A stretch of DNA of 31,648 nt from a virus, in IMG/VR virus record IMGVR_UViG_3300048814_000080, positions 1 through 31,648 of that record. The stretch is one strand, 5' to 3'. Shown here in pieces: positions 2,246 to 21,686 of this stretch (position 1 is its first letter; every line of letters starts with the position of its first letter). The notes under the pieces are model-generated. The model was not told the DNA's origin. It searched no databases and saw only the letters and a list, made by a program, of their open reading frames with translations. A program made the position numbers and the translations under genes.

Positions 2246-3897
2246 CGCGGCGCCTTCCGTAGCTTGCGGATGTCTTTCGCCGCGTAATGCGCGGTCATCA
2301 GGTCGGCCGCGCCGCCGCGGGTCAGGCCCGCGAGCTTGTCCGCGTAGCCCATGCGCTCCAGGGCGCCGGTCTGCGCCGGGGTCGGCGGCCTGTCCCGCCA
2401 TGCGGCCTTGGCCTGCGACAGGACCCCGCCATTCGCTCGGGCGACTTCCTCGCCGACGCCGCGGGCCCAGTCCAGGGTGAGCGGCTTACCGGATTCCAGC
2501 AGCGGCAGGCGGCCCTTCGCGCAGCGGTACACATTCCAGGAGTCGTCCAGGCCGTCACCCGGAACCGGGACCAGGATCATCGTCTGATCGGCGCCCGCAG
2601 GGAGCACCCACGACCCTTCGGCCTCCAGCCAGCGCAGGTCGCTGCGACGCAGGAGGTCGACGTGCCTGGTCCGGGCCGCGGCGACGGCGATCTTCTGCCT
2701 CTCGGTGCCGGCCTGCTCCTCGGCCGCGTCGAGCAGGGACTGCCCCTTCTTGACCGAGCCGGGAGGCAGGCCGGCCAGGTTCGCGATCGTCGCGAGCCCG
2801 AGATCGGACGCGCCGGTCACGTCGAGGATCAGCGCGTCATCCTTGGCGTACGGCTGGCCGTTGAGCTTGCCGACGAACGGGCGCAGTACCCGGCCGGCCA
2901 TCTGGACGAACAGCGGCGCTGATTTGGTCGGCCGCAGCATCAGCGCGCACGACACGGCCGGCTCGTCCCAGCCCTCGGTGAGCACGGCGCAGTTCGTGAC
3001 CACCCGCGTCTCCCCGCGGTGCAGCCGGGCCAGGACGCCGCGGCGGTCGTCGGTGTGCATCGTCCCGTCGACCGCTTCGGCCGGGATTCCCGTGGCCCTC
3101 AGCTTCTCCGCGAGGGCGTGCGCGGTGGCGATCGTCGGCGTGAACGCGACCCCGAGGCGGCCCTTCGCGTACTCGGCGTACGCCTTCGCCGCGGCGTTCA
3201 GCGCGTCGGAGCGCTCCAGCTCGGCGCCGATCGAGGAATCCGTGTAGTCGCCCGCGCGGACCTGGACGTTGCCGAGGTCGAAGTCCGTTCCGATCTGGAC
3301 GGCCCGGACATCGCACAGGTAGCCCTCGGCGATCATCTGGACGATGCCGCGCTGGTAGGTGATCTCGGACCACGCCGCGCGGAGCCCGACCTTGTCGCTG
3401 CGGCCCGCGGTGGCGGTAAAGCCGACCGTCAGCGGGCCGCCCGCGTCCATGCACCCGAGCTCGGCGAGGATGTCCAGGTAGGTGCTGGCGACCGCGTGGT
3501 GGGCCTCGTCCACGATGACCGTGGAGAACTTCCCGAGCCGTGCCACCCGGCCGGGCCGGGCCAGGGTCTGCACCGAGGCGACGACAACGCGGGCGTCGTG
3601 CTCGTCCTGCCGTGCCTTGACGATCCCGATGTCCAGCGAGCCGCCGACGAGCGCCAGCTTGGACGCGGCCTGCGAGATCAGCTCGTCCCGGTGGGCCAGG
3701 ACCAGCGCGCGGCCGGGGCGGCGGCTCACCAGGTGGGCGAAGACAACGGTCTTGCCGCCCCCGGTGGGCAGGACGACGAGCTGGCGGGTGACGCCGCGGG
3801 CATGAGCGGCGCCGATGGCGTCCAGGGCCTGCGACTGGTAGGGCCGCAGCGGCAGCGGGGAGTTGCCGGGCATCTCAAGCGCCAGTGCCGCGGTCAT
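2242..3897 (-). CDS. DEAD/DEAH-box superfamily 2 DNA helicase
   Basis: This 551-residue SF2 ATPase is of the kind found in phage replication modules, where it probably remodels forks or recombination intermediates. Visible motifs are Q-like LRPYQSQALDAI near 17-28, Walker A PTGGGKT (44-50), the DEAH box VIVDEAHH (128-134), motif III TATA (161-164), and motif VI QMAGRVLRP in the second RecA domain. The C-terminal third (after about residue 400) has the repeated Trp/Leu pattern seen in element-borne relatives of RadD/UvsW-type helicases. The ATG at 3897 overlaps the TGA of the loader gene (ATGA). Long in-frame extension upstream to 5073 is antisense-like low-complexity sequence overlapping two real genes. 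Confidence 0.93.
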   Translation of the reverse strand: MTAALALEMPGNSPLPLRPYQSQALDAIGAAHARGVTRQLVVLPTGGGKTVVFAHLVSRRPGRALVLAHRDELISQAASKLALVGGSLDIGIVKARQDEHDARVVVASVQTLARPGRVARLGKFSTVIVDEAHHAVASTYLDILAELGCMDAGGPLTVGFTATAGRSDKVGLRAAWSEITYQRGIVQMIAEGYLCDVRAVQIGTDFDLGNVQVRAGDYTDSSIGAELERSDALNAAAKAYAEYAKGRLGVAFTPTIATAHALAEKLRATGIPAEAVDGTMHTDDRRGVLARLHRGETRVVTNCAVLTEGWDEPAVSCALMLRPTKSAPLFVQMAGRVLRPFVGKLNGQPYAKDDALILDVTGASDLGLATIANLAGLPPGSVKKGQSLLDAAEEQAGTERQKIAVAAARTRHVDLLRRSDLRWLEAEGSWVLPAGADQTMILVPVPGDGLDDSWNVYRCAKGRLPLLESGKPLTLDWARGVGEEVARANGGVLSQAKAAWRDRPPTPAQTGALERMGYADKLAGLTRGGAADLMTAHYAAKDIRKLRKAPR

Positions 3898-4475
3898 CGT
3901 GCCGCCCTCCTGCGGTCCTGGCCGCCGAGGACGATCGGCTTCCGGCACATCGCCGAGAGGCGGGAGGCAACCCGGTCGCCGAGCGCCGCGCGGAGGTCCG
4001 CAAGCGGCACGTTCGAGGTGAACAGGCCAGGCAGCATCGCCTGGTAGCGGTCGTTGACCAGCCGGTAGAGGATCTCCTCGGTCCATTCGCTGGACTTGCC
4101 GGCGCCGAGGTCGTCGAGCAGCAGCAGCTGAACCGCGGCGACCTTGCGGAACTCCGCTTCGGTGTCTGTGCCCTCGCGGGGCCGAAGGCTCGCGAACAGC
4201 CCGGCCGCAGTGTCCGCGTGCCAGCCGACGGTGATGCCCGCGGCGGCGAGGGTGCGGATCGCACCGAGCGCCTGATGGGTCTTGCCTGTCCCGGTCGGGC
4301 CGAGGATCAGCAGCGACGGGGAGTCCGGGCCGAACGCCTCGCACCAGGCGATGACGTCGGGGTGGGTGGCGGTGGCCTCGCGGAACCGCGGCGGGATGCG
4401 CTTGTCGGTCGTCTCGACGGCCCTGCGGAGGAATCCCTCGCGGGTCGAGACGTCGTAGAGCTCGGGGGTGGTCAT
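3894..4475 (-). CDS. DnaC/IstB-like AAA+ ATPase, helicase loader
   Basis: At 193 residues this is a compact AAA+ protein. It has Walker A GPTGTGKT (59-66), Walker B LLLLDDLG (117-124) and a sensor-1 FTSN (152-155), as in the DnaC/IstB family. Its position between the initiator and DnaB in one operon indicates that it loads DnaB at the origin. It is shorter than E. coli DnaC, with a short N-terminal region before the ATPase core, which may contain the DnaB contact. The start ATG (4475) shares one base with the stop of the initiator gene (TGATG). IstB of an insertion sequence is the alternative, but no transposase accompanies it. Confidence 0.9.
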   Translation of the reverse strand: MTTPELYDVSTREGFLRRAVETTDKRIPPRFREATATHPDVIAWCEAFGPDSPSLLILGPTGTGKTHQALGAIRTLAAAGITVGWHADTAAGLFASLRPREGTDTEAEFRKVAAVQLLLLDDLGAGKSSEWTEEILYRLVNDRYQAMLPGLFTSNVPLADLRAALGDRVASRLSAMCRKPIVLGGQDRRRAAR

Positions 4476-5323
4476 CAGAGTGTCCCCTCGTAGACCGAGT
4501 CGTCGGCTGGGTTCCGGTATGGCTGGTGGCCGCGCTTCGGCACATGACCGGCTGCGGCTGCGGCGTCCTTGCGCACCTGGACGGCAAGGTCGTGCCACTC
4601 GCCGCCGCCCATGGTGTGCGCCGCCTTGATGAGCGTTTCCGCGTCGCAGCCTTCGGCCAGCAGTTGCCGAGCCTGCTTGCCGACGCGGGCGACGATGCTG
4701 GAGCTAGGACGAGGCTGTCCCGATGCGGTGGCCCCGTCGATGAAGGCACCGACGACATCGCCGACGTTTTTCGCTCGCTCAGGCTCAGCGAGAGGATCGG
4801 GCCGACGCGGCTTGCCCGCGTCCGCCGTAGGCGGAACTCCTGTCTCCTGTCTCCTGTCTCCAACCGCCCGCGCGCGAGGATCACGGTCGCCTGCGGAGCC
4901 GTTCCGCTCCCGTTCCGCGACTGGGTGCGGAATCGTTCCGCGACTGGGTGCGGAATCGTTCCGCGACTCGTCCAGGAATGACTCCACTGGTAGAGGCGGT
5001 TCCGGGAGGATGCTCGGCTGCGGCTTGGAGATGCGCTGATGCTTGGACCAGTTGGGGAAGTAGGCGTACTCAATGCCCCTGACCTGGTAGACGACGAGAA
5101 ACCCGATGTCGTGCGCCTCGTCGCGCCATGCCCGTATCGCCGCGGGCTTGAGGTCGTCGGCGGGGAAAATGTCCCCCGCGAGCTTCGCCGTGGAGGCGAA
5201 CAGCCGTCCCTCGTCGTCGGCGTGGGAGATCATCCCGATGACGAGCAGACGGGCGCTCATGGACAGCGCGATGAACTTCTCATCGGTCCAGATCGACGGC
5301 TTGAGCGAGCGAATCCGGGCCAT
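4475..5323 (-). CDS. Phage-type winged-helix replication initiator carrying iterons in its gene
   Basis: The 282-residue protein begins MARIRSLKPSIWTDEKF and has LLVIGMISHADDEGR, IFPADD and FPNWSKHQRI motifs (residues 1-97). These match the N-terminal domain of actinophage replication initiators that precede DnaC and DnaB. Residues 119-137 (SRNDSAPSRGTIPHPVAER) are encoded by the iteron block at 4911-4967 and form a linker. A 7-bp slippage tract (ctcctgt, 3.5 copies, 4837-4861) encodes the nearby GDRRQETG. The C-terminal part (about 190-282) is helical and could contact the loader. The ATG at 5323 is chosen from family similarity; no clear ribosome binding site precedes it, so a leaderless mRNA is possible. 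The layout recalls lambda O, whose gene also contains the origin. Confidence 0.87.
   Translation of the reverse strand: MARIRSLKPSIWTDEKFIALSMSARLLVIGMISHADDEGRLFASTAKLAGDIFPADDLKPAAIRAWRDEAHDIGFLVVYQVRGIEYAYFPNWSKHQRISKPQPSILPEPPLPVESFLDESRNDSAPSRGTIPHPVAERERNGSAGDRDPRARAVGDRRQETGVPPTADAGKPRRPDPLAEPERAKNVGDVVGAFIDGATASGQPRPSSSIVARVGKQARQLLAEGCDAETLIKAAHTMGGGEWHDLAVQVRKDAAAAAGHVPKRGHQPYRNPADDSVYEGTL
4911..4967. repeat. Iteron block A inside the initiator gene
   Basis: Two complete 23-bp units (4911-4933 and 4934-4956) are followed by an 11-bp partial unit. Each unit is cgttccgcgactgggtgcgg plus aat. A unit contains TTCCGC-N8-GCGGAA, and adjacent units form GCGGAA-TCG-TTCCGC, so the block can bind a dimer or fold in two alternative ways. 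It is identical to block B. It is likely recognised by the initiator it lies in. Confidence 0.9.
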
Positions 5324-5399
5324 AACACGGCCCGCCGGGCGGCGACTTTGCCAGTGCTTTGCCCGCAAAAATCCGGAATCCGGCGCCAGTAACCCCGGC

Positions 5400-5456
5400 C
5401 GTTCCGCGACTGGGTGCGGAATCGTTCCGCGACTGGGTGCGGAATCGTTCCGCGAC
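5400..5456. repeat. Iteron block B upstream of the initiator gene
   Basis: This block is a 57-bp exact copy of block A, 489 bp away. That distance is a multiple of three, so both blocks encode the same residues in the same frame, although this copy lies outside the chosen gene start. It sits between the initiator gene and an AT-richer stretch, as expected for an origin or an autoregulatory operator. Confidence 0.9.
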
Positions 5457-5607
5457 CCAGCCTTCGGCTGCACTCTCCCCGCTGATCGGTGCTACGGGGA
5501 TGCGGACGGACGGGCACTGAGCGCCGCCTTCCTGTACGTGGTGCCAGTGGTTGACATGCGGTTCCTGCGAAGCCGGGAGGGTAATCCGGCGAAGTTCGTT
5601 CAAGTTA

Positions 5608-5638
5608 TCATGACTCTAGATCATGTCAAATGGTCATG
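5608..5638. promoter_or_regulatory. Three TCATG direct repeats at exact 13-bp spacing
   Basis: TCATG starts at 5608, 5621 and 5634. The first two units are tcatgactctaga and tcatgtcaaatgg. The spacing is not a full helical turn but is constant. The sites lie 24-54 bp upstream of the rightward ATG, a plausible operator or initiator-binding array. Confidence 0.4.
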
Positions 5639-5661
5639 TGGAGTTATCGCGATCTTAGGTA

Positions 5662-5991
5662 ATGCCTGATAAGATTGGCGTCACGCATGACTTGGCATCG
5701 TGTTGCCGGGTCACCGATGATGAGGACGTGGACGACGTGGTGGATGAACTGGTAGCAGCGGTGAAGGCGGCCCGCGCCAGCACCGCGCAGGCCGAAGCCG
5801 ATCACGAGCGGGTCAAAGACCTGTTCGTGCGGGCGCGCATCGAACGGCCCGACCTCGGCCCGGACGACCTCGAGGAACTGACGGAGAAGTACATGGACCG
5901 GTCCGTCATCAGCCGGATCACGGTGCCCGAGATGCGCAGGCTCGGCCATGAGCCCGCCCGCAAGCCGCGGCGCCGTCGTCCGCGGTCCTGA
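5662..5991 (+). CDS. Small helical, possibly DNA-binding protein
   Basis: The predicted protein has 109 residues and no assigned function. It is almost entirely helical: an acidic N-terminus (DDEDVDDVVDELVAAVKAAR), a central RVKDLFVRARIERPDLGPDDLEELT, then YMDRSVISRITVPEMRRLG and a basic tail RKPRRRRPRS. The DRSVISRITV segment could be the recognition part of a small helix-turn-helix, as in short regulators of actinobacterial elements. The ATG at 5662 lacks a strong ribosome binding site; GTG codons within the first 30 residues (near the DVDDVV segment) are alternative starts. It runs opposite to all neighbours, directly beside the candidate origin, so a role in regulating replication or copy number is plausible but unproven. 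Confidence 0.65.
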   Translation: MPDKIGVTHDLASCCRVTDDEDVDDVVDELVAAVKAARASTAQAEADHERVKDLFVRARIERPDLGPDDLEELTEKYMDRSVISRITVPEMRRLGHEPARKPRRRRPRS

Positions 5992-6053: not shown

Positions 6054-6230
6054 TCAGCTAGCCGGCCTTCCTCGTCGCTGCGCTCTCTTAGCCGCTGCCG
6101 TCGCCTTCGGATCGAGACGGAACACCCCGCACCCGCACGCCCGGAGGATGCACCAGCCCGGAGGATGGCGGATCTTGCCGTGACTGCACAGGCAGACGGG
6201 CGGTGTCTCCGGTACCGGGGAGGGCATCAT
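6054..6230 (-). CDS. Cys-rich small protein, last gene of the recombination operon
   Basis: This 58-residue protein contains C-L-C, C-I-L and CGC groups (VCLCSHGKIRHPPGWCILRACGCGVFR) that could bind one zinc ion, and ends in a basic tail KRAQRRGRPAS. Such proteins are common late additions in actinophage gene clusters; the function is unknown. The ATG at 6230 overlaps the TGA of the methyltransferase gene as ATGA. The second ATG three bases on is the less likely start. Confidence 0.7.
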   Translation of the reverse strand: MMPSPVPETPPVCLCSHGKIRHPPGWCILRACGCGVFRLDPKATAAAKRAQRRGRPAS

Positions 6231-7792
6231 GCGGCACCCCTTGCAGCGACGAGACGGGCCTCTACGGCCACGATCCGGCGCATGATCCACTCCACGACGG
6301 GAACGGCCACACTGTTCCCGATCTCCCGGTAGCGGGCCGAGTCGGACTGCTCGGAGCCATCAGCGAGCCATCGGGTCCAGTCGTCGGGAAGCCCCTGGAG
6401 GCGCTCGCACTCGCGGGGGGAGAGACGGCGGACGGCGGTCCCGGTGCTGACGCCGGTTACCTGGTTTGCCTGGAGCGCGGTCGGCATCGGGCCGTAGCCG
6501 AGCCGGGCTTTGGAGCCGCCCGACTGCGGGTTGAATGCCATAGGCGCGTCATCGGGGATTGACTCCGGCGCGACAACCCAGTTTTCTTCACGGTCGTTGC
6601 GGTCGTTGCGGCTCGTAAGCGCGTAGGCGACGATCGGCGTTCCGCGCCCCGTCCCGTCCTCTGAGGCGTCCGCACCTTCGGAAGTGAGGGCGTGGTCCAC
6701 GCCCTCACTTCCGAAGGTCGCCACCATCGCGTGCGAGGAACCGCCTGTTGACGCCCGGACGGTGTACGCTGCCTCGCCTGCCTCGCCTGCCTCGCCTGCC
6801 TCGATCTGGCTCCCGGAATCCCGGCCGCGCAGCGCCACGGGGATTGCCACCAGGTGCCCCCCCGCCGCCCCTTCCGCGTCTACCCGGTGGCCGCGACGTC
6901 CGCCCCCCTGGAGGGTTGAGACGACAAGCTGTCCGGCGGCGGCCTCGTCGGCCCCGAGCCGCCATCCGCCGCCAGGCCCGACACCGCCGAGGGTTCCGAC
7001 TGTGCGAGAGTCTCCAGCGCCACCCTGAGCGTGCCGGGGATCTCCCTGCCCCGCCGGGCCGCGCGCCGCAGGATTCCCCTCGCCGCCTTCGGGCTCAAGG
7101 AGTACCCGGACAGGTGCGGCCCGGTCTCCAAGACATCCGGCAATGAAGACGCGACTGCGGCGCTGGGGGACGCCGAAAAACTGAGAGTCCAGAACTCTGT
7201 AGGCGACCCCATCCCAGCGTTTCCCCACCGCCCCGAGGACGGTACCCATGGCTCCTCCGTGGAGTCCCATGCAGCCGCCAGGGCAGGCGCCGCCCTCGGG
7301 AACGTGGGAGACATGGGGGATGAAGACTCGCTCCCCGTCTCGTTTTTCCCATCGTCCGCACCGAACAGCGCGTCCACTGACCAGGCAGGTTTCGTCCCCG
7401 GAGCACGAGCAGACGGCCGAGAGCAGGCCCGGCACGTTCTCAAATAGGAGCCAGCGTGGGCGCAGCTCGTCAGCGAGCCGCATGATGTGCCAGAAGAGTC
7501 CTGAACGTGCTCCGCCCAGGCCCGTGCGGCGGCCAGCGATTGAGAGGTCCTGGCAGGGTGACCCCCCGGCGAGGATTCCTCGTCCGGGAACAAAGCCTGC
7601 TGCGATGAGCTGGTCACCAGTGACCTCCGTGACGTCGTTGAACAGTGCCGTGTACGGGAAGTGGCGGGCGAGGACACCGCGGCACTCCGGGTCGATCTCC
7701 ACGGCGGCCACGACGTTTACCCCGGCCCGCTTGAGTGCGAGATCGATACCGCCGATGCCGGCGAACAGGGAGACTGCGGTCAGGTCGCTCAC
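6227..7792 (-). CDS. DNA (cytosine-5) methyltransferase
   Basis: This enzyme transfers a methyl group from S-adenosylmethionine to C5 of cytosine in duplex DNA. Over 521 residues the family motifs appear in order: I (FAGIGG, 10-15), IV with catalytic Cys (SPCQ, C80), VI (ENV, 118-120), VIII (QRRSR, 210-214), IX (RRLSPRECERLQGLPDDW near 455-472) and X (GNSVAVPV near 490-497). A Cys-rich insert (about 127-175) sits between VI and VIII. The variable region (about 230-440) is long and low in complexity, with a GEA repeat and a perfect DNA palindrome. No restriction enzyme is adjacent, so protection of the element from host restriction is the likely role. The GTG start overlaps the upstream TGA (GTGA). 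Confidence 0.94.
   Translation of the reverse strand: MSDLTAVSLFAGIGGIDLALKRAGVNVVAAVEIDPECRGVLARHFPYTALFNDVTEVTGDQLIAAGFVPGRGILAGGSPCQDLSIAGRRTGLGGARSGLFWHIMRLADELRPRWLLFENVPGLLSAVCSCSGDETCLVSGRAVRCGRWEKRDGERVFIPHVSHVPEGGACPGGCMGLHGGAMGTVLGAVGKRWDGVAYRVLDSQFFGVPQRRSRVFIAGCLGDRAAPVRVLLEPEGGEGNPAARGPAGQGDPRHAQGGAGDSRTVGTLGGVGPGGGWRLGADEAAAGQLVVSTLQGGGRRGHRVDAEGAAGGHLVAIPVALRGRDSGSQIEAGEAGEAGEAAYTVRASTGGSSHAMVATFGSEGVDHALTSEGADASEDGTGRGTPIVAYALTSRNDRNDREENWVVAPESIPDDAPMAFNPQSGGSKARLGYGPMPTALQANQVTGVSTGTAVRRLSPRECERLQGLPDDWTRWLADGSEQSDSARYREIGNSVAVPVVEWIMRRIVAVEARLVAARGAA
6674..6718. repeat. 45-bp perfect palindrome inside the methyltransferase gene
   Basis: Two 22-bp arms (6674-6695 and 6697-6718) are exact reverse complements around a single T at 6696. 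The arms begin accttcggaag. It encodes about residues 359-373 (FGSEGVDHALTSEGA) in the variable region. A palindrome this long inside a gene is rare and could extrude as a cruciform. Confidence 0.97.
6771..6806. repeat. 9-bp tandem repeat in the methyltransferase gene
   Basis: gcctcgcct is repeated three times exactly, with a partial fourth copy. It encodes Gly-Glu-Ala repeats just before the palindrome. Slippage would change the protein by three residues per unit. Confidence 0.85.
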
Positions 7793-8145: not shown

Positions 8146-8405
8146 CGGGCAATCACTCCCGGTCCCGCATTCGCGCCCTGCCCGTACCTGGCGCCGCCCG
8201 CGGAGACGTAGCCGGGGACGACCCGGTAGCTGCCCTTGCGCGGTGCCTGAAGGTCGGGGAAGTGGCCGCGGTCGAACAGCTCGTCCCGGTAGTCCTCCGC
8301 GGCCTTCCTGCCGCTTGAGTCCTGGCGTCCAGCGTCCTCGAACGTGCGCGTCTCGCAGGGCGGCTCATGGCCGCACTCGCACCTCTCGACCTTGCCGGGG
8401 CTCAT
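8142..8405 (-). CDS. Hypothetical protein with N-terminal Cys motif
   Basis: The 87-residue protein is unrecognised. It starts MSPGKVERCECGHEPPCETR, a CxC-GH-C pattern that could bind a metal, followed by a charged helix (RKAAEDYRDELFDRGHF) and a Gly-rich C-terminus. The ATG at 8405 overlaps the TGA of the resolvase gene as ATGA. That junction rejects the longer in-frame reading upstream, which is Arg/Pro-rich. Confidence 0.65.
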   Translation of the reverse strand: MSPGKVERCECGHEPPCETRTFEDAGRQDSSGRKAAEDYRDELFDRGHFPDLQAPRKGSYRVVPGYVSAGGARYGQGANAGPGVIAR

Positions 8406-9013
8406 GCTTCGCCTCCCGGCGTCTCGGTGAGGTGCAGGACCAGCCGCCCTTTCGGGAACGGCTCCCCGATGATGCAGCGGACTCCGGCGACATGCCGCGA
8501 GTCGTCGCCAGGCAGGCACCGGGCGGCCACGATGCCATCCAGGGCCGCTTTCCCCGCCGGTGAGATGTTGTCCGCGTCGCGGTGCCTGCGGTCGGGGGGC
8601 TGGTACTCCACGACGACGGAGACGCGATCGAGCTGCGGCACCCTGGCGTTCAGGGCCATGACCCACGCGGCCCTCTTGAGCTCCTGGGCGCGGCTGTTGC
8701 GTTCCCGCCAGTGCAGCCGGTCGTTCAGGCTCAGGAGCTTCAGCCCGGCCGGGAGGGTGATGGTGTAGGTGGACCCGGCCAAGACCGCGCTGTCTGCATC
8801 AAGCGCGGCCCCGGCCGGAGCTTGTGCCCCTCCCCGGCCCCGCGCAGCAGCACGGCCTGAGGCTGCGCGGGTAACCGGGGAGGGAGTCCGGGCCAGCTCC
8901 CCCTGGGGGGGATAGGGGGAGCTGGCGCCCGTGCGGCCGGGGTCGGTACCGGCGGCACGGGACACGCGGGCGAGGGAGCGGTTCTCGCCGGCGCGGTCTT
9001 GGGTTGAGGTCAC
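8402..9013 (-). CDS. RusA-like Holliday junction resolvase
   Basis: RusA-family enzymes are small dimeric nucleases that cut four-way junctions. Here the domain occupies about residues 80-203. It contains LLSLNDRLHWRERNSRA, then DADNISPAGKAALDGIV, then GDDSRHV, matching the family pattern D-x2-N-x4-K-x3-D with a later DD. The first 80 residues are a Pro/Gly/Ala-rich linker, so the protein is longer (203 residues) than E. coli RusA (about 120). The GTG at 9013 overlaps the TGA of the small membrane protein gene (GTGA). With the ERF protein and exonuclease of the same operon it completes a phage-style recombination set. Confidence 0.82.
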   Translation of the reverse strand: MTSTQDRAGENRSLARVSRAAGTDPGRTGASSPYPPQGELARTPSPVTRAASGRAAARGRGGAQAPAGAALDADSAVLAGSTYTITLPAGLKLLSLNDRLHWRERNSRAQELKRAAWVMALNARVPQLDRVSVVVEYQPPDRRHRDADNISPAGKAALDGIVAARCLPGDDSRHVAGVRCIIGEPFPKGRLVLHLTETPGGEA

Positions 9014-9159
9014 CACGGACCTCCGGTAGCGGCATAGGCCACAGCAGAGACGGCGGCGATGACGCACAGGACACGGGAGGTACGCCGCCGCCCGGCCTCG
9101 CCGTAGATGAGGGCACCGCCGCCAGCACAGCCGGCGATGACGAGGAAGGCCGTGTTCAT
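9010..9159 (-). CDS. 49-residue membrane peptide
   Basis: Two hydrophobic segments (AFLVIAGCAGGGALI and VLCVIAAVSAVAYAA) flank a short basic loop EAGRRRTSR, giving a helical hairpin. No family was recognised. The ATG at 9159 overlaps the stop of the HIT gene (ATGA) and its stop overlaps the GTG of the resolvase gene. It is one of several tiny membrane proteins placed between nucleases in this operon. Confidence 0.65.
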   Translation of the reverse strand: MNTAFLVIAGCAGGGALIYGEAGRRRTSRVLCVIAAVSAVAYAATGGPW

Positions 9160-9518
9160 GACTTCGGCTCCCGCTTCTGCCGGCCGCTCCACCACGGGAG
9201 CGCCAAGCCGTCACCCGGCCGGCGCGGCACGATGTGAGCGTGGAGATGGAAAACGCTCTGCGAAGCGTCCAAGCCGACCGAGGTGATGATGTTGGCCTGG
9301 TATCCGAGGTTGGCCAGCAGCCGCCCGGCGTGCTCCATCACGTAGCCGGTGACGTGCGGCTCAGCGGTAGCGTCCCGCACGTGGCGGAACGGGACGACCA
9401 GGAGATGGCCCCGCGTGACCGGGTTCAGCGGTTCGAACACGGCCACCTCGCCGGGCAGGCTCATCTCCTCGTCGTACTCGCCAGCGGCGATGCGGGCGCA
9501 GAACGGGCAGTCGGCCAT
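9156..9518 (-). CDS. HIT (histidine triad) family nucleotide hydrolase
   Basis: This 120-residue protein has the complete triad signature QSVFHLHAHIVPR (H91, H93, H95), the preceding GLDASQS, the substrate-proximal NPVTRGHLLVVP, and an N-terminal CPFC pair like zinc-containing HIT proteins. Family members hydrolyse or transfer nucleoside monophosphates from compounds such as Ap4A or AMP conjugates. It is encoded in the middle of a recombination operon, joined to both neighbours by start/stop overlaps (TGATG upstream, ATGA downstream). That makes it part of the element rather than a stray host gene. Its substrate in this setting is unknown; nucleotide salvage or removing AMP from stalled ligation products are possibilities. 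Confidence 0.92.
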   Translation of the reverse strand: MADCPFCARIAAGEYDEEMSLPGEVAVFEPLNPVTRGHLLVVPFRHVRDATAEPHVTGYVMEHAGRLLANLGYQANIITSVGLDASQSVFHLHAHIVPRRPGDGLALPWWSGRQKREPKS

Positions 9519-11329: not shown

Positions 11330-11697
11330 GAGGCACGACCCCCCGTCGCGTTCCACATCGAGCGGACGCTGTTGAGGATCGACTGCCACGCGAACAGTTC
11401 CTTCTCCAGCGAGCCGGCTTCCCGCTGGGCGTGATGGAAGGCAACCTCAGCCTCGTCGGCCGCCTCTTTTTCTGTCATCGCCACCTGCGTGGCCTCGGCC
11501 TTCCGCATGTACTCGGGGCCGTCTGCGGAGAGCATGGCGCGGGCGAACTCATGGTCGTAGGCCCGGCGCGCGGCCTTCATTGCCGTCTCGGCCTGGTCCA
11601 CGATGAGGACCGCCTCGCCGATGCGGTCCTTGGTCTCCTCGATCAGGTCCTCCACGTCGACCGGGTTGCGCACCGGGCGCTCGGCCTCGATGCTCAT
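11326..11697 (-). CDS. Coiled-coil phage protein paired with the exonuclease
   Basis: The 123-residue, almost wholly helical protein has heptad-like stretches (DLIEETKDRIGEAVLIVDQAETAMKAARRA and TEKEAADEAEVAFHHAQREAGSLEKEL). It ends FAWQSILNSVRSMWNATG. Proteins with this tail follow Cas4-like exonuclease genes in actinophage recombination modules, as I recall. Its TGA overlaps the GTG of the HNH-type gene, and its ATG overlaps the exonuclease stop. A scaffold or partner role for the exonuclease is an inference from order alone. Confidence 0.75.
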   Translation of the reverse strand: MSIEAERPVRNPVDVEDLIEETKDRIGEAVLIVDQAETAMKAARRAYDHEFARAMLSADGPEYMRKAEATQVAMTEKEAADEAEVAFHHAQREAGSLEKELFAWQSILNSVRSMWNATGGRAS

Positions 11698-12692
11698 GCC
11701 GCCGCCCTGGGTGCCTTGATCTTCGTGACGGTCAGCCGGCCGGCGCTACCGGGCCTGGTGGTCATCGGGACCTTCTCGCCGCGGGCCTCATAGTCAGCGA
11801 AGATGGCGGTCTCGTCGGGGACCGGCTTGTCCTCGCCAGCCTCGCCGGTCGACACCCGCCAGTCGCCGGCGATGCCACGCAGGCCGCGGACGAGCGGAGC
11901 GAGCCCCTTCTTCTCCTTCTCCAGCGGCCCGATCATGGCGTTGATCTCGCCGTACCGGGCGACCGCCGCGGCTAGCTCCGGGTCGGAGATCAGTTCACCT
12001 TCGGGCTGGCTGGTCTCGCGGCAGAGCGAGAAGAAGCTGCACCAGCTGGCGCACCAGGCGTACGGCTTGTCCTTCGGCAGCGGGTCACCCGCGGCCACCC
12101 GGTCGCGCACCCACTCCAGCCGGTCAGCCCCCTCGTCAGCGAGCGAGCGGTCGAACGGCTCCTCGTATGCCCACCAGTCGGCGAACGTGCTGCCGCCGAC
12201 CGGGATCACCAGGAGGCGCACCGTGCAGTCCTCCGGCAGCTCGCCCCCGTCGACCAGCCCGGCGGCGTAGCCGTGGACCTGGACGCGCTTGGGGCGCAGC
12301 AAGTCGTGGTCGGCTGCCCAGAGCTTGGAGTTGACAAGGCTCGTGGTCTTGAAATCCACGAGGAAGTCGGGGCCTACCAGGTCGGCGTGGCCAGGGATGC
12401 CCCGGTACGTCGTGTCTACTTCGGTACGTACGCCGGGGCCGAGCGCGTCCTTGAAAAGCTCGATCGGGTCGATGCCGGGCCCGAGGATGTCTTCCAGGTA
12501 CTCATGGATTGACGTTCCCGTCTGTGCCGCCCACGAGTCGGTGTCGTCAGTGGCGAACGCCCCGTCGAGCCGGAAGCCGAGCGCGGCCCGGCACCCGCCG
12601 ACCTCGGACCAGCCGACCGCGCGCTGGAGGGACCGCGGGCGCGCGGCGTCGTGGTCGCGCACCCGCTTGATCACCTGCTCGATCCAGCTCAT
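11694..12692 (-). CDS. Cas4/RecB-like PD-(D/E)XK exonuclease
   Basis: This is probably the 5'-3' exonuclease that makes single-stranded tails for the ERF protein. In 332 residues the nuclease core shows a His motif GTSIHEYLE (H63), GHAD with D104, VDFKTT with D113 and K115, and QVHGY (Q138, Y142). Four Cys (C34, C214, C218, C224) are placed as in the iron-sulfur cluster of Cas4/AddB nucleases. The C-terminal 100 residues (after about 230) add a helical region and a basic tail. The gene lies between ERF and the coiled-coil gene with ATGA overlaps on both sides. No cas genes are present, so a CRISPR role is unlikely. Confidence 0.88.
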   Translation of the reverse strand: MSWIEQVIKRVRDHDAARPRSLQRAVGWSEVGGCRAALGFRLDGAFATDDTDSWAAQTGTSIHEYLEDILGPGIDPIELFKDALGPGVRTEVDTTYRGIPGHADLVGPDFLVDFKTTSLVNSKLWAADHDLLRPKRVQVHGYAAGLVDGGELPEDCTVRLLVIPVGGSTFADWWAYEEPFDRSLADEGADRLEWVRDRVAAGDPLPKDKPYAWCASWCSFFSLCRETSQPEGELISDPELAAAVARYGEINAMIGPLEKEKKGLAPLVRGLRGIAGDWRVSTGEAGEDKPVPDETAIFADYEARGEKVPMTTRPGSAGRLTVTKIKAPRAAA

Positions 12693-13654
12693 GTCGCTGC
12701 CGGCGCCTTCTCGCGGAGGGTCTTCGCGGCGGCGCGGAGCTGGGCCGGGGTGGCCGTCTCCATGCCGGTGCCGACGACAGCCTTGAGGTAACCGTCAAGG
12801 TCGGAGACATCCCGCTCGGCCGCTGCTGCGGTCAGGTCCGCCAGCGCATCGTCGGCTTCCTTGATCTGCCTGCGTTTCCAGTCGAGGTAGACGGCGAGCT
12901 TGCCGGGCTTCCCGTTCCCGTCGCCTGCCGGGTTCCGGACGAGCGCGGCGAGCTTCCCGGCCACGCGTGCCCGCTGGTGGATGTCCTCGATGTCGTGCGG
13001 GGTGACCGCGCCGTGAGCCTCGTCGGCGTAAGCCTGAGCGTCCTTGTCGATGTCCTCGGGTGCCGTCTCGGCCGCGGCGGGCCTGGGCGGCTGCGCGGGA
13101 CGGGAAACCTGGCCGCGCTGCTGCCCGTTCCCGTTCGCCGGACGAGCTGGTGCGGCGTTATCCCAGACGTCGCCTGCCGACTGGCGGCTGCCGTGGTCCT
13201 GCTGGGCGCGCTGTCCGTCGTCGTCATCTTCAAGGACGATGTTGGTCGCGGCAGTGAAGCAGTACCGGCGGCCGTAGGTGATCGCGCTGCCGAGCGACTG
13301 CGGCTTCTGGCTCGTAGGGCCGAGCGGCCACTCTCCGGTCTTCTCCTCGCCAGACTCGTGGAGCAGCGACCAGACGAGGATCATCTCTCGCCGCTCGGCC
13401 GGGTTGATCGTCGGCCCGCAGTGGAACGCGAGCCCGTACTTGGCCAGGAGCGGCCCGACATCGGCGACGACATCGCCAAGGTCGGCGTAGGAGTACTCGT
13501 AAGAGAAGTACTTCCCCGCCTTGTTCTCGCCCTCGACCTTGCCCGTCTTGGTCTTGGTGACCCGCGGCAGCTCACCCTGAAGCAGGGACAGTGCCTTGTT
13601 CAGGTTCGGCGTGCCGGCCTTCACGGGCGCGGTGGCCGTCTCGGTCTCGGTCAT
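12689..13654 (-). CDS. ERF-family single-strand annealing protein
   Basis: ERF proteins anneal complementary single strands in phage recombination and end repair. The N-terminal domain (about 15-160) carries the expected pattern LNKALSLLQGELPRVTKTKTG, FSYEYSYADLGDVVADVGPLLAKYGL and GSAITYGRRYCFTAATNI. An acidic DDDDGQ stretch and a Pro/Gln linker lead to a helical C-terminal part (about 215-321) ending RAAAKTLREKAPAAT. The ATG at 13654 overlaps the TGA of the upstream gene (ATGA). It directly precedes the exonuclease it should work with. Confidence 0.9.
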   Translation of the reverse strand: MTETETATAPVKAGTPNLNKALSLLQGELPRVTKTKTGKVEGENKAGKYFSYEYSYADLGDVVADVGPLLAKYGLAFHCGPTINPAERREMILVWSLLHESGEEKTGEWPLGPTSQKPQSLGSAITYGRRYCFTAATNIVLEDDDDGQRAQQDHGSRQSAGDVWDNAAPARPANGNGQQRGQVSRPAQPPRPAAAETAPEDIDKDAQAYADEAHGAVTPHDIEDIHQRARVAGKLAALVRNPAGDGNGKPGKLAVYLDWKRRQIKEADDALADLTAAAAERDVSDLDGYLKAVVGTGMETATPAQLRAAAKTLREKAPAAT

Positions 13655-13977
13655 GACTGCGTTCCCCCCTCTGCTGCTGCCGGAAGCAGGATCACGAGGA
13701 CCTGCGCTATCTCGTCTGCGTTCTCCGCTTCGAGCTTGAGTGCCCTGGAGTGACCGCCAGGGCCGGCTTTCATGCCCGCGAACCAGGCCGGGACGATGCC
13801 GCGCTGAAGGTCCCGGTAGACCTTCAGCGCCTTCGCGAGGTCCCGAACGGTCTCCTCGATGAGGTCCCGGTCGGCCCCGGGCCATTCCCGGCTCAGGTCG
13901 CGGGCGCGGCTGAAGACGTCGGTGGCCCTGGCGATCAGGTCCTCGTCGTAGGTGAGCTCGGCGGCCGCGGCGGTCAT
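13651..13977 (-). CDS. Helical hypothetical protein
   Basis: The 108-residue acidic, helical protein (YDEDLIARATDVFSRARDLSREW, RDLIEETVRDLAKALKVYRDLQRG) was not recognised. A central PAWFAGMKAGPGGHS loop separates two helical halves. It is coupled by ATGA overlaps to ERF and to the gene before it, suggesting a recombination accessory protein, without further evidence. Confidence 0.7.
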   Translation of the reverse strand: MTAAAAELTYDEDLIARATDVFSRARDLSREWPGADRDLIEETVRDLAKALKVYRDLQRGIVPAWFAGMKAGPGGHSRALKLEAENADEIAQVLVILLPAAAEGGTQS

Positions 13978-20551: not shown

Positions 20552-20853
20552 GTCGTCACCGGCCGGTACTCGTAGCTGGTCACGGGCACCTTCTCGACCT
20601 GGGTAAAGGTGACCGCGTCCATAGGCCCTCCGGCCCCCGATGGGTCCTCGAACGGCCGGGTGTCCTGGTATTCGGTCAGGCCCTTCTCGTATGACGTCGA
20701 CCAGAGCCTGCCGTCCCTGTCCTTCACGATGAGCCGGTGCGTGCTCACCCAGCGGCGGGTGCCTGTCTGTACCCTGGTCTCGACTTCCAGGCCTAGTGCA
20801 GGGTCGGCCTCGTCATAGACGAGTTCCCTGGCCTGCTCGCCGGTCAGTATCAC
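20548..20853 (-). CDS. Hypothetical beta-rich protein
   Basis: The 101-residue protein has an N-terminal helix (GEQARELVYDE) followed by strand-like segments (EVETRVQTGTRRWVSTHRLIVKDRDGRLWSTSYEKGLTEYQ) and an acidic tail. The central stretch resembles small phage proteins that wrap a beta-barrel, but no family was recognised. The GTG overlaps the TGA of the ParB-like gene (GTGA); the longer frame upstream is shadow. Confidence 0.65.
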   Translation of the reverse strand: MILTGEQARELVYDEADPALGLEVETRVQTGTRRWVSTHRLIVKDRDGRLWSTSYEKGLTEYQDTRPFEDPSGAGGPMDAVTFTQVEKVPVTSYEYRPVTT

Positions 20854-21686
20854 GACGCCTCTTCGGCGAGCCTCAGCTGCCCGTCGCCGTCCGCGCGCCA
20901 CCAGGATGACAGCTTCTTTCCGCCTCGTCCGGAGTTGATCAGTTCCACAGCCGCGGCGGCGACACAGTGCGCCTTCTGGTTCCCCGTCTGCTTGCGCAGG
21001 AACTCCGCCTTGTTCAGGAGACCATGGACCCCGCCGAACGCCTTCGACAGAACGGCCACAGCCCGCTCGTCGGTCAGGTCGCTGCCGTACCGGTGGCACA
21101 GCAGCCCGATCCCGTCAATGACGCTGGCCTCCAGCCCGGCATCCCCGTAGGCGTCGCGGACGACGCACAGGGTACGGGCGAGGCTTTCCCCGCCGCCGCG
21201 ACGGTAGACGCGCAGCAGCGTGTTCACCGCGGAGATCGCGCCCTGGCTCCGGTCCCGGCTGATCCGGAGCCCGGCCGAGCGGACGACCTTGTCGATCGCG
21301 CATTCCTCCTCGCGCCCGGCCTGGACCGACACCTTGAACTTGGCGAACGCGTTGACGGTGAGGATGTCGTTGAGCTTGAGGAACTTCTCCGCCTCTTCGG
21401 TGTCGGTCAGGCCCCGGTATGCCCAGCACTGGACCAGCTGGTCGCCGTAGCCGATCTGGACGAGGGCGCCGACGCGGTGCTGGCCGTCGATGACGAACCA
21501 GTGGCCGTCGCGGAAATTGACGGTGGGCGTGCCGAGCTGCTCCAGGTCGAAGTCGGCGGCGAGCCGGTCGACGCGGGCCTGGTTGAGGTCCCGCTGGGCG
21601 AGCGGGGAGACCTGCATCAGCTCGATGGGCACCCACTCGAGGACAGCGTCGCGCTGGACTCGCTTCGGGGTAGTGTCGGTTGTCAC
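20850..21686 (-). CDS. ParB/sulfiredoxin-fold protein (DUF6551-like)
   Basis: The 278-residue protein has the ParB-like signature WVPIELMQVSPLAQRDLNQARVDRLAADFD (17-46) and VIDGQHRVGALVQIGY (about 65-80), where DGQHR is the nucleotide-binding box. A helical C-terminal region follows. Relatives annotated as DUF6551, as I recall, are common in actinophages and elements. ParB-fold proteins may act in segregation (with CTP), as nucleases or as regulators. No ParA ATPase gene is nearby, so classical partitioning is not supported. The GTG overlaps the TGA of the preceding gene (GTGA). Confidence 0.85.
   Translation of the reverse strand: MTTDTTPKRVQRDAVLEWVPIELMQVSPLAQRDLNQARVDRLAADFDLEQLGTPTVNFRDGHWFVIDGQHRVGALVQIGYGDQLVQCWAYRGLTDTEEAEKFLKLNDILTVNAFAKFKVSVQAGREEECAIDKVVRSAGLRISRDRSQGAISAVNTLLRVYRRGGGESLARTLCVVRDAYGDAGLEASVIDGIGLLCHRYGSDLTDERAVAVLSKAFGGVHGLLNKAEFLRKQTGNQKAHCVAAAAVELINSGRGGKKLSSWWRADGDGQLRLAEEAS

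Follow-up and report, generated by a model that had tools for sequence, protein, structure and literature searches.

The window, as the whole stretch analyzed here is called, spans a 31.6-kb virus record (31,648 nucleotides; IMG/VR record IMGVR_UViG_3300048814_000080) and has a GC content of 69%. Its minus strand carries a gene for a replication initiator of 282 amino acids (positions 4475 to 5323), followed by genes for a DnaC-like helicase loader (3894 to 4475; phrog_50, E value 8e-31; PF01695) and a DnaB-like replicative helicase (881 to 2401; PF03796, E value 3e-78; phrog_19), with a DEAD/ResIII helicase gene among them. The order of initiator, DnaC-like loader, and DnaB genes is that of phages with an origin of the λ O or SPP1 oriL type. 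Searched as DNA against known phages, the locus had no match. Elsewhere in the window we observed a recombination set of a RusA-like resolvase, an exonuclease, and an Erf-like annealing protein (8402 to 9214 and 11694 to 13885, the last two proteins being encoded within the second interval), a 36-bp tandem repeat in two copies (91 to 163), and 3.9 copies of CTGCCTCGC (6769 to 6803) within a cytosine methylase gene (6227 to 7792). A ParB-like/DUF6551 protein is encoded at 20850 to 21686; given that it is the sole basis for assuming a phage-plasmid life style and that no ParA was found among the proteins scanned, we discarded this assumption.

The initiator is composed of an N-terminal winged helix, a linker encoded by the putative origin, and a C-terminal part, and it starts with the residues MARIRS, which are conserved in its family. 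Over the N-terminal domain and linker it matches two PHROG families of replication initiation proteins, phrog_2149 (E value 2.6e-28) and phrog_1408 (E value 1.6e-27). The N-terminal domain was modeled as a confident winged helix (pLDDT of 95), whose best Foldseek matches in the PDB are 4pt7 (“structure of initiator”) and then 4pql; both are weak (E values of 3e-3 to 5e-3), and their VIA Z of ∼7 is tied with that of many winged helices. 4PT7 is listed among plasmid RepA and DnaD structures (PMC7145576). Viral matches comprise phage “replisome organizers” and p19 of Mx8. At the sequence level, no Pfam match to PF06970 (RepA_N) was found at E values up to 10, the match to PF13730 is weak and below the cutoff (E value of 0.0011), and the N-domain profile picked out nothing convincing among the sequences of solved structures.

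In the part of the initiator gene that encodes the linker, we found an array of 2.5 copies of a 23-bp unit, CGTTCCGCGACTGGGTGCGGAAT (4910 to 4967), and a second array of the same composition upstream of the gene (5399 to 5456), with a 100% match among units in both (TRF). The two blocks are identical over 58 nucleotides (nt) and lie 489 bp apart from start to start, a spacing that corresponds to a noninteger number of helical turns. The earlier note had reported a 57-bp identical pair (4911 to 4967 and 5400 to 5456) built of TTCCGC-N8-GCGGAA units with GCGGAA-TCG-TTCCGC joints; the units and joints are as described there, and the pair is one base longer. On the minus strand, the strand of the replication genes, the unit reads GTCGCGGAACGATTCCGCACCCA, with GCGGAA-CGA-TTCCGC as its core dyad. 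Shuffling the window 20 times (first order) gave longest repeats of only 14 to 18 nt, which excludes a chance origin of the 58-nt repeat; the next longest real repeat in the window is 37 nt.

Relatives of the initiator are encoded at six loci in viral contigs. Two of them (L005 and L013) belong to essentially the same phage as the window (99.84% over 10 kb) and thus provide no independent evidence. The in-gene array is present in L006 (81%) and L007 (70%) and is visible in the partial locus L008, while in L009/L022 (42%) the same motif is located past the stop codon of an initiator of 122 residues. In the window, the in-gene array runs on into a half-site and a third dyad (GCGGAGCCGTTCCGC, or GCGGAACGGCTCCGC on the minus strand; 4893 to 4907), resulting in GCGGAA steps of 23, 23, and 11 bp, and this dyad is kept in L006 and L007. 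Adjoining the array on the minus strand is a purine-rich 7-bp repeat, GGAGACA, in 3.6 copies (4837 to 4861), a putative strand-opening or helicase-loading element that is unchanged across the window, L006, and L007, yet is not AT-rich. It is covered by 17 invariant codons (DPRARAVGDRRQETGVP; 4832 to 4882, minus strand) without a single base change among these three sequences, as compared with 42% invariant codons over the whole initiator gene. No clear AT-rich element was found at the candidate origin, and GC skew along the whole window, suggested earlier as a check, shows no sharp switch at the array. A further 15 codons in a row (codons 86 to 100, YAYFPNWSKHQRISK; 5023 to 5068) are free of base changes in the window, L006, and L007; they stand just ahead of a variable stretch and the array and are perhaps a recombination joint.

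The same arrangement recurs in the wider initiator family, for which 160 loci (L021 to L180) were fetched with the N-domain profile. Repeat lags of 10 to 11 and of 5 are common between 300 and 600 nt into the gene and scarcely occur between 600 and 900 nt or upstream. Iteron-like repeats occur in 85 of 134 nonredundant members versus none of 134 codon-shuffled sequences, and a purine tract lies on the coding strand in 87 of 133 members, compared with 2 on the other strand and 2 of 133 in the control region. Wherever the order could be read (55 of 55), the iterons precede the tract, at a median distance of 49 nt; about one-third of the members fall below the thresholds for this layout. Its usual form, near 300 to 600 nt from the initiator start, is a set of palindromic iterons of 10 to 12 bp and then a purine tract, often GGAAR, in 5-bp steps. 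Among cultured phages, Butters has CTCGCGAGACA followed by GGAACAGG repeats, and further examples are Purky, Bradissa, a Stenotrophomonas phage, and a Klebsiella phage.

Several features indicate that it is the DNA rather than the encoded peptide that is conserved. The iterons show no preference for a reading frame (29/22/34 in 134 members), the 23-bp unit of the window is not a multiple of three and shifts the frame at each step, and in six members the purine tract comes only after the stop codon, which implies conservation of DNA and not of peptide. Given the use of other frames, the layouts past the stop codon, and a noncoding pattern of change, we rejected the idea that selection on the peptide produced the repeats. 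The in-gene array of the window thus exemplifies what appears to be a general origin layout, and comparison of gene order, iterons, and family layout lends good support to the earlier proposal of an origin within the initiator gene, as in λ O. On these sequence comparisons we regard the in-gene array as very probably the replication origin.

The GGAGACA repeat is not specific, since among nine extra contigs with three copies of it a family initiator was found upstream only in L207. In that contig (about 11745 to 12250), the frame of a distant initiator ends before the array, and CTCGCGCGC and GTTGGAGACAGGAGACAGGAGACAGGAG are shared with the window origin. Z-DNA-like CGCGCG stretches are not clearly enriched in the family linker. 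Two candidate matches to the array were dismissed: a Rhodococcus plasmid has no repeat array at the matching place, and the single pattern match that came up when 395 genomes from the class to which L101 belongs were scanned is not array-like. A study of mycobacteriophage RepA origins found no repeats and proposed that the origin is located upstream of or within repA (PMC7157519).

The upstream array is located in the noncoding leader of the initiator gene and ends 75 nt before the start codon. L006 likewise carries both arrays 489 bp apart, and in L006 and the window alike the first GCGGAA stands 130 nt ahead of the ATG. In L007 the in-gene array, the third dyad, and the GGAGACA repeat are present and the upstream array is absent; the leader is shorter by about the array and the stretch behind it, although part of that leader is still recognizable, including a segment (5475 to 5572 in the window, minus strand) with 73% identity over 100 nt. 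The hexanucleotide CGGCTA occurs ∼43 times upstream of the L007 initiator gene (L007 positions 3190 to 3445). Among close relatives, the refuting case named in the earlier note, an initiator gene kept without the arrays, was found for the upstream copy and not for the in-gene one. Because L007 does without it, the leader array is not essential in this group.

The 75 nt between the upstream array and the start codon (5324 to 5398, minus strand) are identical to L006 at 44 positions, with changes distributed 11/9/11 by codon position versus 27/37/74 inside the gene. Because this stretch changes equally at the three positions, the upstream copy does not look coding, and the 489-bp spacing within the same codon frame, which is real as claimed, is not a sign of a translated upstream copy. 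The AT-richer stretch (53 to 55% GC versus 69%) that had been placed beside this copy does exist, but at about 5500 to 5800, beyond it. Within the stretch, an intergenic part flanked by divergent open reading frames (5560 to 5700) contains a near-palindrome, ATCATGACTCTAGATCATG, and a minus-strand TTGACA-like box, a possible operator or promoter.

Neither a third dyad nor a purine repeat, both of which accompany the in-gene array, was found at the upstream copy. When the 500 nt upstream of the gene were compared with the linker, the longest exact match was 58 nt in the window phage, 60 or more nt in L006, and at most 13 nt in 166 other loci; in an ungapped 24-nt scan, the window phage and L006 each scored 24/24 and none of 131 others exceeded 19, a level like that of a control region, both scans being of a kind that could miss degenerate short iterons or copies farther away. 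Of the two origin-like arrays named by the earlier note, only the in-gene one therefore keeps this description: the upstream one lacks the other elements and is absent from L007 and the other members scanned. The interpretation of the earlier note is thus supported in part, and the upstream copy is most likely a second binding array and not a second full origin.

The two arrays have not changed independently of each other. Between the window and L006 they are identical at 54 of 57 positions, while the adjacent leader has the 44 of 75 given above, and the three differing sites are the same three in both arrays. Within one phage, in contrast, the two match perfectly, over 58 nt for the window phage and over 67 nt for L006. 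This joint change implies copying between them. The identical tract of L006 takes in the leader flank CCGAATACG, and since the same flank is found upstream of the gene in L007, this suggests that in the L006 lineage copying ran from the leader to the gene. Conversely, since it is the in-gene array that is widespread, the leader array was probably once copied from the gene. The Erf-like annealing protein and the exonuclease could be agents of such copying. The leader array is carried by only two independent lineages, and the relatives are metagenomic fragments.

From these observations we infer binding, origin activity, a direction of copying, and regulation, which would be connected as follows. 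The N-terminal winged helix of the initiator would bind GCGGAA/TTCCGC sites on a lattice of ∼11 to 12 bp, the adjacent purine-rich repeat would be opened, and the DnaC-like loader would place DnaB there, with the origin DNA doubling as coding sequence for the initiator linker. A copy of the array would have entered the leader of the initiator operon in the ancestor shared by the window phage and L006, and conversion would since have kept both copies alike. The leader copy would then be a second site for initiator binding without the other origin elements, through which abundant initiator could limit its own synthesis or the leader could pair with the origin. Autoregulation or looping in the operon leader appears to us its most likely role; the handcuffing or looping between two identical arrays raised by the earlier note is a possible form of it. 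We assign this complete statement, an in-gene origin plus a working leader array, a probability of roughly 55%.

The main competitor accepts the in-gene origin and takes the leader copy to be a functionless product of recombination, alike only through repeat conversion. The joint change of the arrays, the inclusion of the leader flank in the identical tract of L006 (as conversion would give), the absence of the copy from L007 and every other family member scanned, and the presence in the window of genes for an annealing protein and an exonuclease all fit this idea, and conversion alone can explain the high identity of the arrays. Against it, the copy is intact and in the same place in two phages despite the divergence of the adjacent leader. 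We consider a neutral copy unlikely, with substantial weight nonetheless because L007 does without the leader array.

Clearly less probable is that the leader copy acts as a fork barrier, as proposed for gp38 at SPP1 oriR, favoring a switch to concatemer synthesis: a fork leaving toward the purine repeat would round the circle and meet the initiator-bound leader array just before the origin. This reading has the SPP1 precedent (PMC3485210, PMC6316719), the position of the array on the origin side away from the purine repeat, and the encoded resolvase, exonuclease, and annealing protein, whose functions are used in the SPP1 model. However, oriR of SPP1 is 12 to 13 kb away with its own unwinding element, the reading presupposes one direction of replication, and such recombination genes are common in phages. 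We give still less credence to an action in RNA, in which the palindromic units would fold stably into a hairpin within the leader of the initiator mRNA and affect translation or transcript ends. The leader array does fold at −33.4 kcal/mol (z of −4.15), but the palindromes by themselves account for the fold, z reaches only −2.0 in L006, and the identical in-gene sequence is explained by the origin; searches for RNA families, tRNAs, and terminators found nothing, neither a terminator-like site nor an Rfam match. Least credible is an upstream initiator start with a duplicated linker peptide, since the shared frame, which is open in both the window phage and L006, is outweighed by the frameshift at each 23-bp step, the layouts of relatives in other frames or past the stop codon, the noncoding pattern of change before the ATG, and the family N terminus at MARIRS.

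In the reading that we favor, the in-gene site has an arrangement common to many phages, and the second set, found only in the window phage and L006, may be a control site. A broader version would hold that a widespread initiator family shares an origin module of palindromic iterons on a 10- to 12-bp lattice and a coding-strand purine repeat, in the linker or just past the stop codon, and that here a conversion-maintained leader array has the role of a control site or of a fork barrier; we put this forward tentatively, with the odds somewhat against it. The open-access papers found contain no description of such a module; it may be described elsewhere. The position of the origin becomes testable in the window phage and, by way of the shared layout, in many other phages and prophages of several phyla. 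An array in the origin and one in the leader, together with a relative without the second, form a natural experiment on limiting initiation, and with a purine repeat taking the place of an AT-rich element, one must ask how an origin opens in a genome of 69% GC.

Compared with known systems, the locus resembles SPP1 in working principle, with initiator, loader, and DnaB genes arranged in series, origin repeats located within the initiator gene, and a second repeat set elsewhere, which in SPP1 is bound by the same initiator (PMC6316719, PMC3485210). There, gp38 binds oriL within its own gene 38 as well as oriR, where forks are thought to stall (PMC6316719, PMC3485210). In contrast to the distant oriR with its unwinding element, the second array here is 489 bp away in the leader, and no purine repeat or third dyad was found beside it. 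With λ O (oriλ in gene O) it shares midgene iterons and a loader gene after the initiator (PMC7466680, PMC3349717); the element to be opened beside the iterons is AT-rich in λ, which has no second leader array, whereas the putative one here is a purine repeat in a 69% GC genome. Extra iterons inhibit replication in λ, for which handcuffing was suggested (PMC3349717, PMC4488673).

Among other initiators, RepA_N proteins (pSK41/pTZ2162) and PLE RepA also have a winged-helix N-terminal domain (PMC5703833, PMC7145576), and pSK41 carries semipalindromic ∼22-bp repeats (Rep boxes) in the center of rep, where the encoded linker is dispensable (PMC5703833). The window initiator differs in having no sequence match to PF06970, and its weak match to the 4pt7 fold is tied with many winged helices. 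The likeness to Rep of the pPR9 type, described as having a phage-like helix-turn-helix (PF13730) (PMC5703833), is the weak, below-cutoff domain match. Finally, iteron plasmids such as pSK639 have repeats upstream, at the rep promoter, which suggests autoregulation (PMC5703833), but these are the likely origin there, while in the window the origin would lie in the gene and the upstream set would be extra.
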